A stretch of 64,000 nucleotides of DNA, taken from NCBI GenBank assembly GCA_022788085.1, contig JALEWA010000101.1:1-64000 (forward strand), written 5' to 3'. This document shows, one piece after another, positions 5,454 to 54,748 of the stretch. A program made the translations under genes and the position numbers. The first letter of the stretch is position 1, and each line of letters starts with the position of its first letter. Source of the DNA: Lachnospiraceae bacterium (GTDB lineage: Bacteria; Bacillota; Clostridia; Lachnospirales; Lachnospiraceae). Under the pieces are notes generated by a model that ran no database searches, was not told where the DNA came from, and was given only the letters and a program-made list of their open reading frames with translations.

Positions 5454-5966
5454 ATGAACAAATTAGATAAATTGATGGAACGAATGATAGAGTTTGATGG
5501 TGGTGATCCAAAAAGAATACAGCATTTTATAAAGGTACATAGCTTTGCACAACAGATTGGAGTTGGTGAGGGGCTTGATGTACATACGCAGGAACTTCTT
5601 GAGGCAGCAGCTATTGTTCACGATATTGGCATTCATCCTGCAGAAACAAAATATGGTCGATGTGATGGCAGGCTTCAGGAGCAGGAGGGACCAAAGCCTG
5701 CCAAAGAAATACTGAAAGAACTTGATTTCCCAGAAAGTGATATAGAAAGAATATGCTTTCTGATTGCGCATCATCACACTTATGAAAATGTTGAGGGTAT
5801 GGACTACCGTATTCTGCTGGAGGCAGATTTCCTTGTGAATCTTTATGAGGATGCTTTACCTGAATCCGCTATACATGCTGCTTTACAGAATATTTTCCGT
5901 ACAGAGACAGGAATACGGATTTGTAAGACAATGTATGGTATTCAGGATGAAGGAGCAGAAAAATGA
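5454..5966 (+). CDS. HD-domain phosphohydrolase
   Basis: QHFIKVHSFAQQIG...AAIVHDIGIH...LIAHHHTYENVEGMDYRILLEADFLVNL. Confidence 0.9.
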   Translation: MNKLDKLMERMIEFDGGDPKRIQHFIKVHSFAQQIGVGEGLDVHTQELLEAAAIVHDIGIHPAETKYGRCDGRLQEQEGPKPAKEILKELDFPESDIERICFLIAHHHTYENVEGMDYRILLEADFLVNLYEDALPESAIHAALQNIFRTETGIRICKTMYGIQDEGAEK

Positions 5967-7197
5967 CAAACGATTTTTCAAAGGGAAGTGTTTGGAAAAA
6001 TATCGTTGCTCAGGCAATTCCATTGATCTTAGCACAGCTGGTGCATTTCCTCTGACAACATTAATTGCAGCATTTACGAATTTGTTTGGAACACCGTTTG
6101 TCATGCTTTCTACCGGTTTAAATGGTTTTATCAATGCACAAGGCTTTCCGAGAGTTGGAATGATGACTACTGTAATCGGGGCAATTTTGAATTTGATTTT
6201 AGATCCGCTATTTATCTTCTCTTTTCATATGGGGGTTAGCGGAGCCGCATTGGCAACAGTAATCAGCCAGATAGTATCGGCAGTATGGGTGCTGAAGTTC
6301 TTAACCGGAAAGAGGGTTCTGCTTCATATTAAAAAGAGATATATGAAGGTAAATCCAATGCTTGCAAAAGAGATAACGAGTCTTGGAATGGCAGGATTCA
6401 TCATGCAAGGTACAAACTGTCTGGTACAGGTGGTATGTAACGCAACCTTGAAAATCTATGGTGGAGATTTGTATGTTGGAATTATGACAGTAATCAATTC
6501 CGCGCGTGATATCTTATCCTTACCTGTTAGTGGGTTGACAAGTGGTTCACAGCCGGTTCTTGGCTATAACTATGGTGCAAGGGAATATACAAGGGTAAAA
6601 CAGGACATTTGCTTTACAGCTTTGCTTGGTATCTTGTATACAGTGGCAGCATGGCTATTTATCATAAAAAAACCAAGGTTTTTGATTTCAGTTTTTACAG
6701 AAGATGCTACCATGTTGGAATATGGTGTTTCTGCACTACATTTGTATTTTTTTGGCTTTTTCTTTATGGCATTTCAGTTTACAGGGCAGTCTACTTTTAC
6801 CGCATTAGGACATTCCAGGCAGGCTATCTTTTTTTCTTTGCTTCGAAAAGCTATTATTGTAACACCTCTGACTATTCTTTTACCAAGAATAGGATTTGGT
6901 GTGAGTGGAGTCTTTCTTGCAGAACCGATATCAAATGCGATTGGAGGTCTGGCATACTTCATAACGATGTGGTTTACTGTATACAGGCGGCTGGGGAGGC
7001 GAAAACAGATGGTGATGGCAAAGACAATGGATGGTGTAGCGGCTGTATGCGGTGGAGCAAATCATACGGTGATTATCAGAACTGATGAATCTGTTTGGAC
7101 TTGTGGTTCAGGAAATTATGGAGAACTTGGTAATGTGACTCCAGTACCATATAATTCAGACGGAGACGTAGGAAGTAATTTTGATATAACCAATTAG
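5963..7197 (+). pseudogene. Decayed MATE efflux gene with internal deletions, fused to an RCC1-repeat fragment
   Basis: MTNDFSKGSVWKNIVAQAIPLILAQLVHFL* opens in one frame, then FPLTTLIAAFTNLFG continues in another, then an in-frame jump to TPFVMLSTGLNGFINAQGFP; the C-terminus reads VAAVCGGANHTVIIRTDESVWTCGSGNYGELGN (RCC1 repeat). Confidence 0.8.
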
Positions 7198-7833
7198 TTC
7201 CAACGAAGATTTCTCTAGTAAGATGTCACAAAAGTGTGACGTAAATAATATCACGACACAATACATCGAAGAATATCACTTTGCGATATTAGTTGTTCTG
7301 TATATGTGCGATTGGCTTGCATCACCATACAGTTTTCATTTGATGAAAATGGATAGATATAAATAATCTGAATAATTTAAGATTATTTTAAACTTATATT
7401 TCCTATTTACATTGACTGAACAACAGCTTTGTTTTATATTTTGTAAGGGAAATATTTATACATCGATTTCTAAGTACCAAGTGGTCAGTGTATTAGTATA
7501 TCGTTTCTAAAATAACTGCACCATACAACTTGTTTTTATGCAAAATGCACCATTTAGAAGCCTTGATATAGCATAGCATGTATTTATTTTTGCAATGGCA
7601 TTCTTGAAAATCGTTCTACATTTTCTGGTACAGTATATTAGAGATGAATAGCGTGTGATTTATTGTGTCTAATTATAACAATTCTGTAGTATTCATATTA
7701 TTATTCAATATTAACCGATTATCTGGTTAGAAATCCATTTATATAGTTAGGATTAAGATAAGCAGGAAGATGAACATTTTATAAACATTTGTGGTGTGAG
7801 AAGAAAGGAGAATCAAAGAGAAATCAAGAGCAT

Positions 7834-8197
7834 TTACGTGTCTCAAAGGGAGAAAGGCAAAAAGGCACGTAAAACGAGAGAAAGGGAAGGAGAAATTAAG
7901 TGAAATTACGTGCGGAAAGAAGAAAAAGGCAAAAGAGACACGTAAAACGAGAAAAAGAAAAAGAGAAATCAAGTGAAATTACGTGTACCAAGAAGAGGAA
8001 GGCAAAAGGGACACGTAAAGCAAGAAAAAGAGAAGGAGAAATCAAGTGAAATTACGTGCGGAAAGAAGAGAAAGGCAAAAGAGACACGTAAAATGAGAAA
8101 AAGAAAAAGAGAAACCAAGTGAAATTACGTGCACCAAGAAGAGAAAAGCAAGAAAGGCACGTAAACCTGAAAAAAGAGAAATTAACATAGTTACGTG
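7834..8197 (+). repeat. 73-bp-period array of TTACGTG/CACGTAA dyads
   Basis: TTACGTG at 7834, 7906, 7979, 8052, 8125, 8191; CACGTAA at 7866, 7939, 8012, 8085, 8158; loops 25-26 nt, linkers mostly 33 nt, all purine-rich on the + strand. Confidence 0.95.
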
Positions 8198-8256
8198 TCC
8201 AAAGGAGAAAAGGTAAGAAAAGCATGCAAGTAAATAAAGTACATACAAGGAGATTA

Positions 8257-9087
8257 ATGTTGGAATATATAAATGATAGCATAAAGTTAACCAAAGATAA
8301 TATCATATCAACTGTAGAAAGAAGAAAAAAGGAGTTGGAGAGTGTTTGCAAATTATTGGAAAAGAATATTGAAAAAGCACCAGAGGGATGCTTGAGAGTT
8401 TCTGTTTCAAATGGTAAAGTACAATATTATTATAAAGAAAATTCTAAAAAATCAAGAAGAAAATACATTCCAAAATCTGACAAAAAATTGGCGTATTTAT
8501 TGGCTCAGAAAGATTATAATCGAAAAGTATTAGTTGCATTATACAAGGAACTGGATGTAATGAAATGGATATGCAGTCATTATTACCCTGAGAAAATACA
8601 AGAGTTATACGATAAAACTCCAATTAGCCGGAAAATGCTTATCACCCCGATTATTCTTTCAGATGGTGAGTATATTAAGTGTTGGGAAGCGCAAGAATAT
8701 GAACATATGGGATTTAAGGAAAATATGCCTGAATATTATACAGCAAAGGGAGAAAGAGTGCGTTCGAAATCAGAAATCATGATTGCTGATACACTGTACC
8801 GAAGGGGGATTCCATATAGATATGAATATCCAATCAGGTTGCAGGGTATAGGAACAGTACATGCTGATTTTTATTGTCTGAATGTCAAAACACGAAAAGA
8901 ATTTGTTTGGGAGCATTTTGGAATGATGGATAATGACGTGTATTCTAATGGAGCTGTAGAAAAGCTTGAGAAGTATATGCAGAATAATTACTGGCCAGGG
9001 ATGAATTTCATTGCAACGTTTGAATCAGCCATGCATCCTTTAAGTACTAAGCTTATAGAGGCAAATATACAAAAATACCTTACTTAA
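8257..9087 (+). CDS. PD-(D/E)XK-like nuclease-fold protein of unknown function (start 8257 preferred over 8224)
   Basis: RSKSEIMIADTLYRRGIPYRYEYPIRLQGIGTVHADFYCLNVKTRKEFVWEHFGMMDN suggests an E...D...E core; AAGGAG at 8247-8252 precedes ATG 8257. Confidence 0.65.
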   Translation: MLEYINDSIKLTKDNIISTVERRKKELESVCKLLEKNIEKAPEGCLRVSVSNGKVQYYYKENSKKSRRKYIPKSDKKLAYLLAQKDYNRKVLVALYKELDVMKWICSHYYPEKIQELYDKTPISRKMLITPIILSDGEYIKCWEAQEYEHMGFKENMPEYYTAKGERVRSKSEIMIADTLYRRGIPYRYEYPIRLQGIGTVHADFYCLNVKTRKEFVWEHFGMMDNDVYSNGAVEKLEKYMQNNYWPGMNFIATFESAMHPLSTKLIEANIQKYLT

Positions 9088-9239
9088 GGATGTATGTATC
9101 AAATACAAGAATGTAATATAATAGAAAAAGAATAACCGTTCAGTACAGCATAAACGACTTGGTGTTATTATACGTAAGAACGAGATTCAAAAATGAAATA
9201 ATACTTCACAACATAATTAGTATCAACAATTTGACAATT

Positions 9240-9276
9240 TAGGCAATTACCGTAAGAAAGTAATTGCCTTTCTTTT
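9240..9276 (+). terminator. Rho-independent terminator upstream of trpB
   Basis: GGCAATTAC-cgtaagaaa-GTAATTGCC followed by TTTCTTTT. Confidence 0.75.
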
Positions 9277-9325
9277 ATAGAACGGTTAAAATGAAAAGGA
9301 GATTGCTATAAAGGAGAAGGAATTT

Positions 9326-54287: not shown

Positions 54288-54400
54288 CGTAGATTTTACA
54301 TTGACATTGACTACTGCATTTACTATAATAATAAAGCACTCAATTTAAACATTATCATAAAAGAGTGATTCTTCAGATAAAGTAATCTGTATGAAACTGG

Positions 54401-54748
54401 GGCTAGTAAAGGTTTCGACAGGGGACTTGAAGATGGAGAAGCAGGTCGCAGGCATGCGTTAAATCCAAAATTAAAATTAAACGCTGAAGATAATTTAGCA
54501 ATCGCTGCCTAATGGCAGCTGTCCGACTTAGTGCACCTACACATTAAGAACCGGGCATCGATTTTGTAGGAAACGACACATGCTAAGCTTTGCGTATGTG
54601 GGCGTAGGATGAAGCTACCAACCGTTAAGGGGCGTTAATTCTCCTTTGCGGAAGGGAACAGGGCTGCAGAAACCCAAAATAATTAACTAAGCCTGTAGAA
54701 GTACATGGGATGGTCTTTTGGACACGGGTTCGACTCCCGTCTAGTCCA
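54401..54748 (+). ncRNA. ssrA: tmRNA
   Basis: 5' GGGCTAG...GGTTTCGACAGGGG; tag ending NAEDNLAIAA-TAA; 3' ACGGGTTCGACTCCCGTCTAGTCCA. Confidence 0.96.

Follow-up and report, generated by a model that had tools for sequence, protein, structure and literature searches.

The window, a stretch of 64 000 nucleotides (64 kb) from a Lachnospiraceae bacterium, contains an array of five perfect TTACGTG-N25/26-CACGTAA dyads, located by exact pattern search, directly upstream of a gene for a PD-(D/E)XK-like protein (Table 1). The start-to-start distances of dyads 1–5 are 72, 73, 73 and 73 bp. A degenerate sixth dyad follows, with one mismatch and a longer spacer than the others, and no further TTACGTG-type dyads were found by the same search in the remainder of the 64 kb. 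The original prediction for this DNA had described the five dyads, a sixth left arm at 8191 and a period of 72–73 bp, all of which are reproduced here. Tandem Repeats Finder reports the repeat at 7815–8181 (period 73, 5.0 copies, score 471), and a template search with 8-nt arms and up to three mismatches finds six copies at the locus, compared with one copy in each of two dinucleotide shuffles. Purines account for 84.6% of the array outside the arms, which places it among the most purine-rich 400 bp stretches of the window; the earlier description of this strand as almost all purine was right in kind and slightly strong in degree. Since most other arrays of the family are not purine-rich, this composition is a local peculiarity. 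The best promoter-like site in the window, a weak one, precedes the array (Table 1). No terminator was found between the array and the gene, and a search of the array region against Rfam gave zero matches. A ∼155 bp MITE-like stretch (9133–9289), bounded by TAACCGTTC and GAACGGTTA, lies just 3′ of the gene, and the same genome has sequence similar to its left end at C70, C37, C115 and C31. Elsewhere in the window, a MATE-transporter-like ORF (5845–7197) ends in what resembles an RCC1-type repeat fragment at 7030–7197 (GGANHTVIIRTDESVWTCGSGNYGELGN), suggesting either an unusual fusion or gene decay, and a tmRNA gene with the tag AEDNLAIAA is located at 54400–54748.

Table 1. Features of the array–gene locus in the window and copies of a MITE-like element elsewhere in the same genome.
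Feature	Position	Strand	Description and basis
Dyad 1	7834–7872	.	25 nt between arms; exact pattern
Dyad 2	7906–7945	.	26 nt between arms; exact pattern
Dyad 3	7979–8018	.	26 nt between arms; exact pattern
Dyad 4	8052–8091	.	26 nt between arms; exact pattern
Dyad 5	8125–8164	.	26 nt between arms; exact pattern
Degenerate dyad 6	8191–8233	.	Left arm perfect; right arm decayed (CATGCAAGTAA), holding the upstream ATG 8224
Whole helically phased dyad array	7815–8233	.	Tandem Repeats Finder, exact pattern, template search, sequence
Promoter-like site	7412–7440	+	TTGACT-17-TATATT, upstream of array; weak (14 sites found, 11.2 expected)
Ribosome-binding site	8247–8252	+	AAGGAG, for ATG 8257; sequence, start choice
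PD-(D/E)XK-like protein gene	8257–9087	+	276 aa; alternative in-frame start at 8224 gives 287 aa
N-terminal domain	8257–8700	+	Long helices and β-hairpin, variable part; predicted structure
C-terminal PD-(D/E)XK-like domain	8701–9084	+	Alignment, predicted structure, fold matches, PADLOC PDC-S68 C-terminal match
MITE-like element copy with array	L200 5035–5395 (approximate)		
MITE-like element copy with array	L202 2462–2802 (approximate)		
MITE-like element copy with array	L204 5896–6256 (approximate)		

The open reading frame at 8224–9087 from which the gene was first described is present, but ATG 8224 falls within the degenerate last arm and ATG 8257 appears to be the better start, because it is preceded by AAGGAG and coincides with the position at which the homologs begin. 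With high confidence, the protein is predicted to consist of a helical N-terminal domain followed by an αβ core of the PD-(D/E)XK type. The AlphaFold2 model (pLDDT 91.7) contains a helix at 171–182, strands within 187–221, a second helix at 227–242 and a final strand at 251–255, in the α-β-β-β-α-β order of the PD-(D/E)XK superfamily core. The superfamily assignment, which had been proposed from a sequence pattern, is supported by the family alignment, by this model and by Foldseek, whose top matches include the superfamily members Bax1, DrdV, R2 endonuclease, MunI and arenavirus endonuclease (best E value 0.014, none being significant alone). A sequence search of the PDB gave nothing significant (endonuclease I at an E value of 1.5). 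The residues of the C-terminal domain that are invariant in the family alignment are the motif RSKxE (Arg169, Ser170, Lys171 and Glu173), Asp204, Glu219-His220-Phe221-Gly222, Lys236 and Glu256. The canonical (D/E)XK lysine is missing: Asp204 and Glu219 are invariant and Phe221 occupies the lysine place of ExK. The invariant Lys236 or Lys171 may stand in for it as a migrated lysine, or the enzyme could be inactive; nuclease activity of the window protein is plausible from its sequence and predicted fold, and is less secure because the conserved glutamate is not followed by the usual lysine. The protein has no match in NCBIfam, no family assignment in PHROGs and no acceptable match in Pfam, where no transposase family was matched either, and the Pfam and PADLOC scans gave no endoribonuclease family of the ToxN/CptN/TenpN type.

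A first homolog search returned 53 relatives, many from MAGs, in taxa including Lachnospiraceae, Fibrobacter and Treponema. By profile search, the family is present in 126 of 397 Lachnospiraceae genomes, mostly drafts and MAGs, with up to six copies per genome. The gene is patchy, with about a third of the genomes of this bacterial family carrying it, multi-copy and apparently horizontally spread. The window genome carries two more members, one at a contig end and one that lies between comEC and holA and lacks an upstream array; in the latter paralog (L055, 1495–2301), the conserved VWEHFG reads YLEHFG. Plasmid and phage collections contained only helicase-fused relatives of the nuclease domain and one unannotated 4.2 kb ‘Bacteriophage sp.’ record without an array, and viral contigs likewise gave partial matches. 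We found no earlier description of the protein family or of its arrays in open PMC articles, and the family is unnamed.

Arrays recur upstream of the homologs, as the original prediction had anticipated, although their arms differ by locus. When the 700 bp before 141 family members were searched for repeated dyads (8-nt arms, up to three mismatches), at least three copies of one dyad were found at 105 of the 141 loci, compared with three of 282 dinucleotide shuffles and eight of 129 stretches located 700–1400 bp upstream. For at least five copies, the corresponding counts are 65/141, 0/282 and 3/129, and at least four copies are present upstream of the gene at 86/141 loci, compared with 4/1120 overlapping windows in 20 kb chunks sampled from two genomes. 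A clear array was not seen at about a quarter of the family members. The arm sequence varies widely across loci (TACGGGT, GTACCCC, GGCGGCT, CATATAAT and others). Since a promoter-like site falls between the array and the gene at 20 of the 76 array loci that have any such site, the arrays would not be a constant part of the gene mRNA.

The distances from dyad to dyad cluster at 52–54, 62–65, 71–75, 83–85, 94–96 and 104–107 bp, with hardly any values between these classes. Taking one value for each protein cluster (n = 88) gives a best period of 10.45–10.55 bp (R = 0.84, Rayleigh p of about 1.6 × 10−27) with a phase near zero, and none of 2000 jittered sets was as well phased. A few spacings, at 111–112 and 151 bp, lie off whole turns. 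The rule persists inside arrays whose linkers are unrelated, such as those of Fibrobacter loci (64-95-84) and of L176 (73-83-85-85-85-74-84), and the phasing is therefore not a by-product of tandem duplication. The array periods correspond to whole helical turns and thus argue for DNA sites on one face of the helix rather than for RNA hairpins. The phasing points to proteins aligned along one face of duplex DNA, an argument that had been made for the window array and that holds across the family.

The arm sequence is linked to the N-terminal domain. In 259 pairs of members with C-terminal domains more than 60% identical, pairs that are not independent and in which close relatives may have inherited the same arrays from a common ancestor, motif similarity tracks the N-terminal domain (partial ρ of 0.39) and not the C-terminal domain (−0.02). 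A Mantel test of arms against whole-protein similarity gives a weak correlation (ρ of 0.07, 13/500 permutations), and the signal is restricted to the N-terminal domain and to pairs that share more than about 45% identity. Because its similarity tracks the arm sequence, the N-terminal domain is the likely dyad-reading domain; the correlation is support and not proof, given the non-independence of the pairs and the possible shared descent of their arrays. Different members occupy the same slot in two Pseudobutyrivibrio species (loci L023 and L045), where both are flanked by coaBC and by the same downstream gene. Their C-terminal domains are 79% identical and their N-terminal domains 26% identical, and both the arms (CTACGTGAGG and CATATAATTTT) and the periods differ, such that specificity has apparently been replaced at one locus.

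Arrays were sought in whole genomes by pattern searches and in sampled stretches. The complete chromosome of G282 contains 33 arrays of three flavours: GTACCCC (40–41 exact dyads, period 94), TTACGTG (41 exact dyads, period 71–72) and GTACCAT (32 exact dyads, period 72). The same chromosome has exactly three family genes, which pair one-to-one with the three array types: an array of a different flavour lies directly upstream of each gene. The GTACCAT flavour was met first, blind, in a de novo scan of G282, and the matching gene was located afterwards, directly 3′ of an eight-dyad GTACCAT array from which it is separated by a promoter-like site. Most of the G282 arrays are far from any gene copy; dispersed arrays keep their arms and period, with linkers that drift. 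Convergent genes flank 16 of the 33 arrays, where 12% would be expected from length (p = 4 × 10−7), divergent genes flank none, and many arrays sit after terminators. A second recurrent motif (approximately ATATGTTG/CAACATA) is present in the linkers of G282 GTACCCC arrays, for example in L207 and L214.

The exact TTACGTG dyad occurs 20 times at six places in the window genome, only one of which adjoins the gene; these dyads are mostly 73–74 bp apart and their inner sequences differ. Exact TTACGTG dyads are present in seven of the 397 genomes, six of them gene-bearing and the seventh with a single dyad, and are absent from the gene-less G196 of the same genus. Exact GTACCCC dyads number at most three in any genome other than G282. 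Genomes without the gene appear to be essentially without dyads. The original prediction had counted wide occurrence of the array without the gene against a pairing of the two; arrays without an adjacent gene do occur, but those of the TTACGTG motif are confined to gene-carrying genomes, with the one single-dyad exception. A four-dyad GTACCCCT GTACCCC array with a 74 bp period is located at 6200–6500 of L296 (G355:C32), a 6.7 kb contig without a family gene from a genome that is 81% complete.

The protein and its phased dyads very probably form a cognate pair at the level of DNA. The reading that we favour, and consider rather probable, is that the extragenic arrays are helically phased, cognate sites of a sequence-specific PD-(D/E)XK protein, in a system that would resemble RAYT/REPIN in organization and be built from unrelated parts. 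The arrays, their phasing, cognate pairing, dispersal and placement and the link of the arms to the N-terminal domain rest on sequence, and from them we infer binding, dimerization, autoregulation, nuclease activity and dissemination. In each dyad, the two inverted arms would be read by the variable N-terminal domain, with a dimer as the simplest arrangement. With the dyads at whole helical turns, the bound dimers would lie on one DNA face and could form a compact, cooperative nucleoprotein assembly. The array at the gene probably autoregulates it, and array copies with the same arms and period occupy intergenic sites around the chromosome, with a preference for positions that follow terminators and lie between convergent genes. 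Both the proposal of the array as a DNA target of the protein and the comparison with REP/RAYT pairs gain support from the comparative sequence data. Because the organization best matches RAYT/REPIN, a parsimonious, if tentative, reading by analogy, and the likeliest reason for the spread and persistence of the arrays, is that the cognate protein acts in trans to copy or maintain them as elements; dissemination alone does not account for the phased spacing. We suggest with similar reserve that these components make up a new genome-wide system, in which a horizontally spreading PD-(D/E)XK family, with a private dyad code for each member and several codes per cell, assembles on phased arrays as chromosomal addresses for chromosome organization, self-marking or control of its own nuclease.

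Chromosome organization and defence or sequestration are serious rivals to this reading. In the former, the dispersed arrays would be addresses at which the protein bridges or marks regions for organization or segregation, by the logic of matS/MatP or parS/ParB, and the nuclease fold would be incidental or would serve topology or repair. The phasing fits such a higher-order assembly, and the distribution of arrays along the G282 chromosome (origin at about 0.53 Mb and terminus at about 1.9 Mb by GC skew) also agrees with it: the GTACCCC arrays are near the origin (median 0.41 Mb) and the TTACGTG arrays are farther off (median 0.82 Mb, with no array closer than 0.55 Mb), a split seen in one genome only (Mann–Whitney p of 0.0002, or 0.003 after merging neighbours). 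However, the third array type, GTACCAT, has mixed origin distances, and G232, with a single dispersed array besides its gene array, has too few for an origin/terminus bias. The conservation of the nuclease-core residues and the patchy, multi-copy, apparently horizontally spread gene, which is unlike core segregation factors, make this explanation rather unlikely.

Also unlikely, to a slightly greater degree, is a role in defence or self-recognition, in which the arrays would keep the nuclease inactive or sequestered, as a DNA ‘antitoxin’ or a self mark, and array-less DNA or loss of the array would free it. The nuclease-like domain is related to the C-terminus of the PADLOC candidate PDC-S68, which matches it in 34 of 34 members, and to PDC-S69, which matches in 12 of 34, but the alignments are partial and confined to this domain (1100–1218 of 1221 and 164–231 of 289, respectively). 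The single-gene, patchy and multi-copy distribution, the private specificity of each locus and the different flavours held by one chromosomal slot in the two Pseudobutyrivibrio species would suit such a role; the gene neighbours in the sampled loci are housekeeping genes (recA/recX, comEC/holA, coaBC and trpB) and not defence islands.

It is improbable that the gene is incidental and that an unrelated transposase moves the arrays as passengers or components of MITEs. Three dispersed three-dyad TTACGTG arrays of the window genome lie inside 340–360 bp copies of a MITE-like element with inverted ends GTAACTGTTCA/TGAACAGTTAC (Table 1), two of the three having imperfect 8 bp flanking duplications, so that some of its arrays appear to travel in a transposable element that another transposase may mobilize. 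The 15 GTACCCC arrays of G282, on the other hand, have no common ends, and both the one-to-one pairing of genes and arrays and their cis linkage at most loci would be left unexplained. An empty-site comparison across the genus gave no clean empty site, with flanks too diverged or on separate contigs. A still less probable alternative is that the array is only an autoregulatory operator of its own gene and that all other copies are debris. The operator suggested in the original prediction agrees with the close cis association at most loci and with promoters near the arrays, but an operator alone is too narrow for dispersed arrays that, unlike debris, keep their arms and period as the linkers diverge and that avoid divergent promoter regions. 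The least probable explanation is that repeats ahead of the gene are transcribed into an RNA whose regularly spaced stems would inhibit or feed the nuclease, as in type III toxin–antitoxin systems. It is consistent with repeats upstream on the side of the gene and with the promoter-like site upstream of the window array, but we disfavour it as a general function since it leaves the helical-turn quantization unexplained, promoter-like sites often follow the array, most G282 arrays are distant from gene copies, stems of ∼7–10 bp would close loops of at least 20 nt, and the window array has neither an Rfam match nor a terminator before the gene.

If the arrays are cognate sites of sequence-specific PD-(D/E)XK proteins, as we favour, about a third of the sampled Lachnospiraceae genomes apparently carry a family with its own chromosome-wide, phased putative binding sites, in which each protein predicts its own site. 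This would account for one class of intergenic repeats of these genomes, and the many natural specificity pairs of N-terminal domain and dyad could be used for learning or engineering DNA recognition. In major bacteria of the gut and rumen, the family may also represent a new layer of chromosome organization or of genome defence.

Several known systems share individual features with what looks like a previously undescribed two-part genome system. PDC-S68 and PDC-S69 have a related C-terminal nuclease-like domain; the PDC-S68 models are ∼1200 residues long and are matched only at the C-terminus rather than over their full length, and we know of no report of a phased array for either candidate. 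The parS/ParB and matS/MatP systems consist of single short sites and core proteins of other folds. They resemble the present family in having dispersed chromosomal sites for a sequence-specific protein, if binding here is as we propose, and in a possible origin/terminus bias, which is seen here in one genome, and differ from its phased multi-dyad arrays and patchy, multi-copy nuclease-fold proteins. The neisserial dRS3/NIME elements and the BIME mosaics of E. coli are, like the arrays, extragenic inverted-repeat clusters with variable spacers; to our knowledge, they neither lie next to a cognate PD-(D/E)XK gene nor display helical-turn quantization. In the type III toxin–antitoxin systems ToxIN, CptIN and TenpIN, the repeat is an RNA and the toxin an endoribonuclease (PMC8860590). 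Like the window locus, these systems have tandem repeats that directly precede one toxin or nuclease-like gene, whereas the present family has a PD-(D/E)XK-like fold and dispersed arrays with a spacing that follows the DNA helix. The closest resemblance in organization is to RAYTs (TnpA_REP), Y1 HUH transposases whose substrates are single-stranded hairpins; each RAYT has a REPIN flavour of its own, located both next to its gene and at dispersed sites (PMC3116915). In both cases, a distinct enzyme gene accompanies each flavour, cognate palindromic elements are found beside the gene and dispersed extragenically, and several unrelated flavours can coexist in a genome. The family described here, however, has multi-dyad arrays at whole helical turns, with ∼20–26 nt between arms, and a predicted PD-(D/E)XK-like fold in place of Y1 HUH; because the fold differs, it is not a RAYT/REPIN member on the basis of the model, and it would instead be an independent, non-HUH counterpart to REPIN/RAYT.
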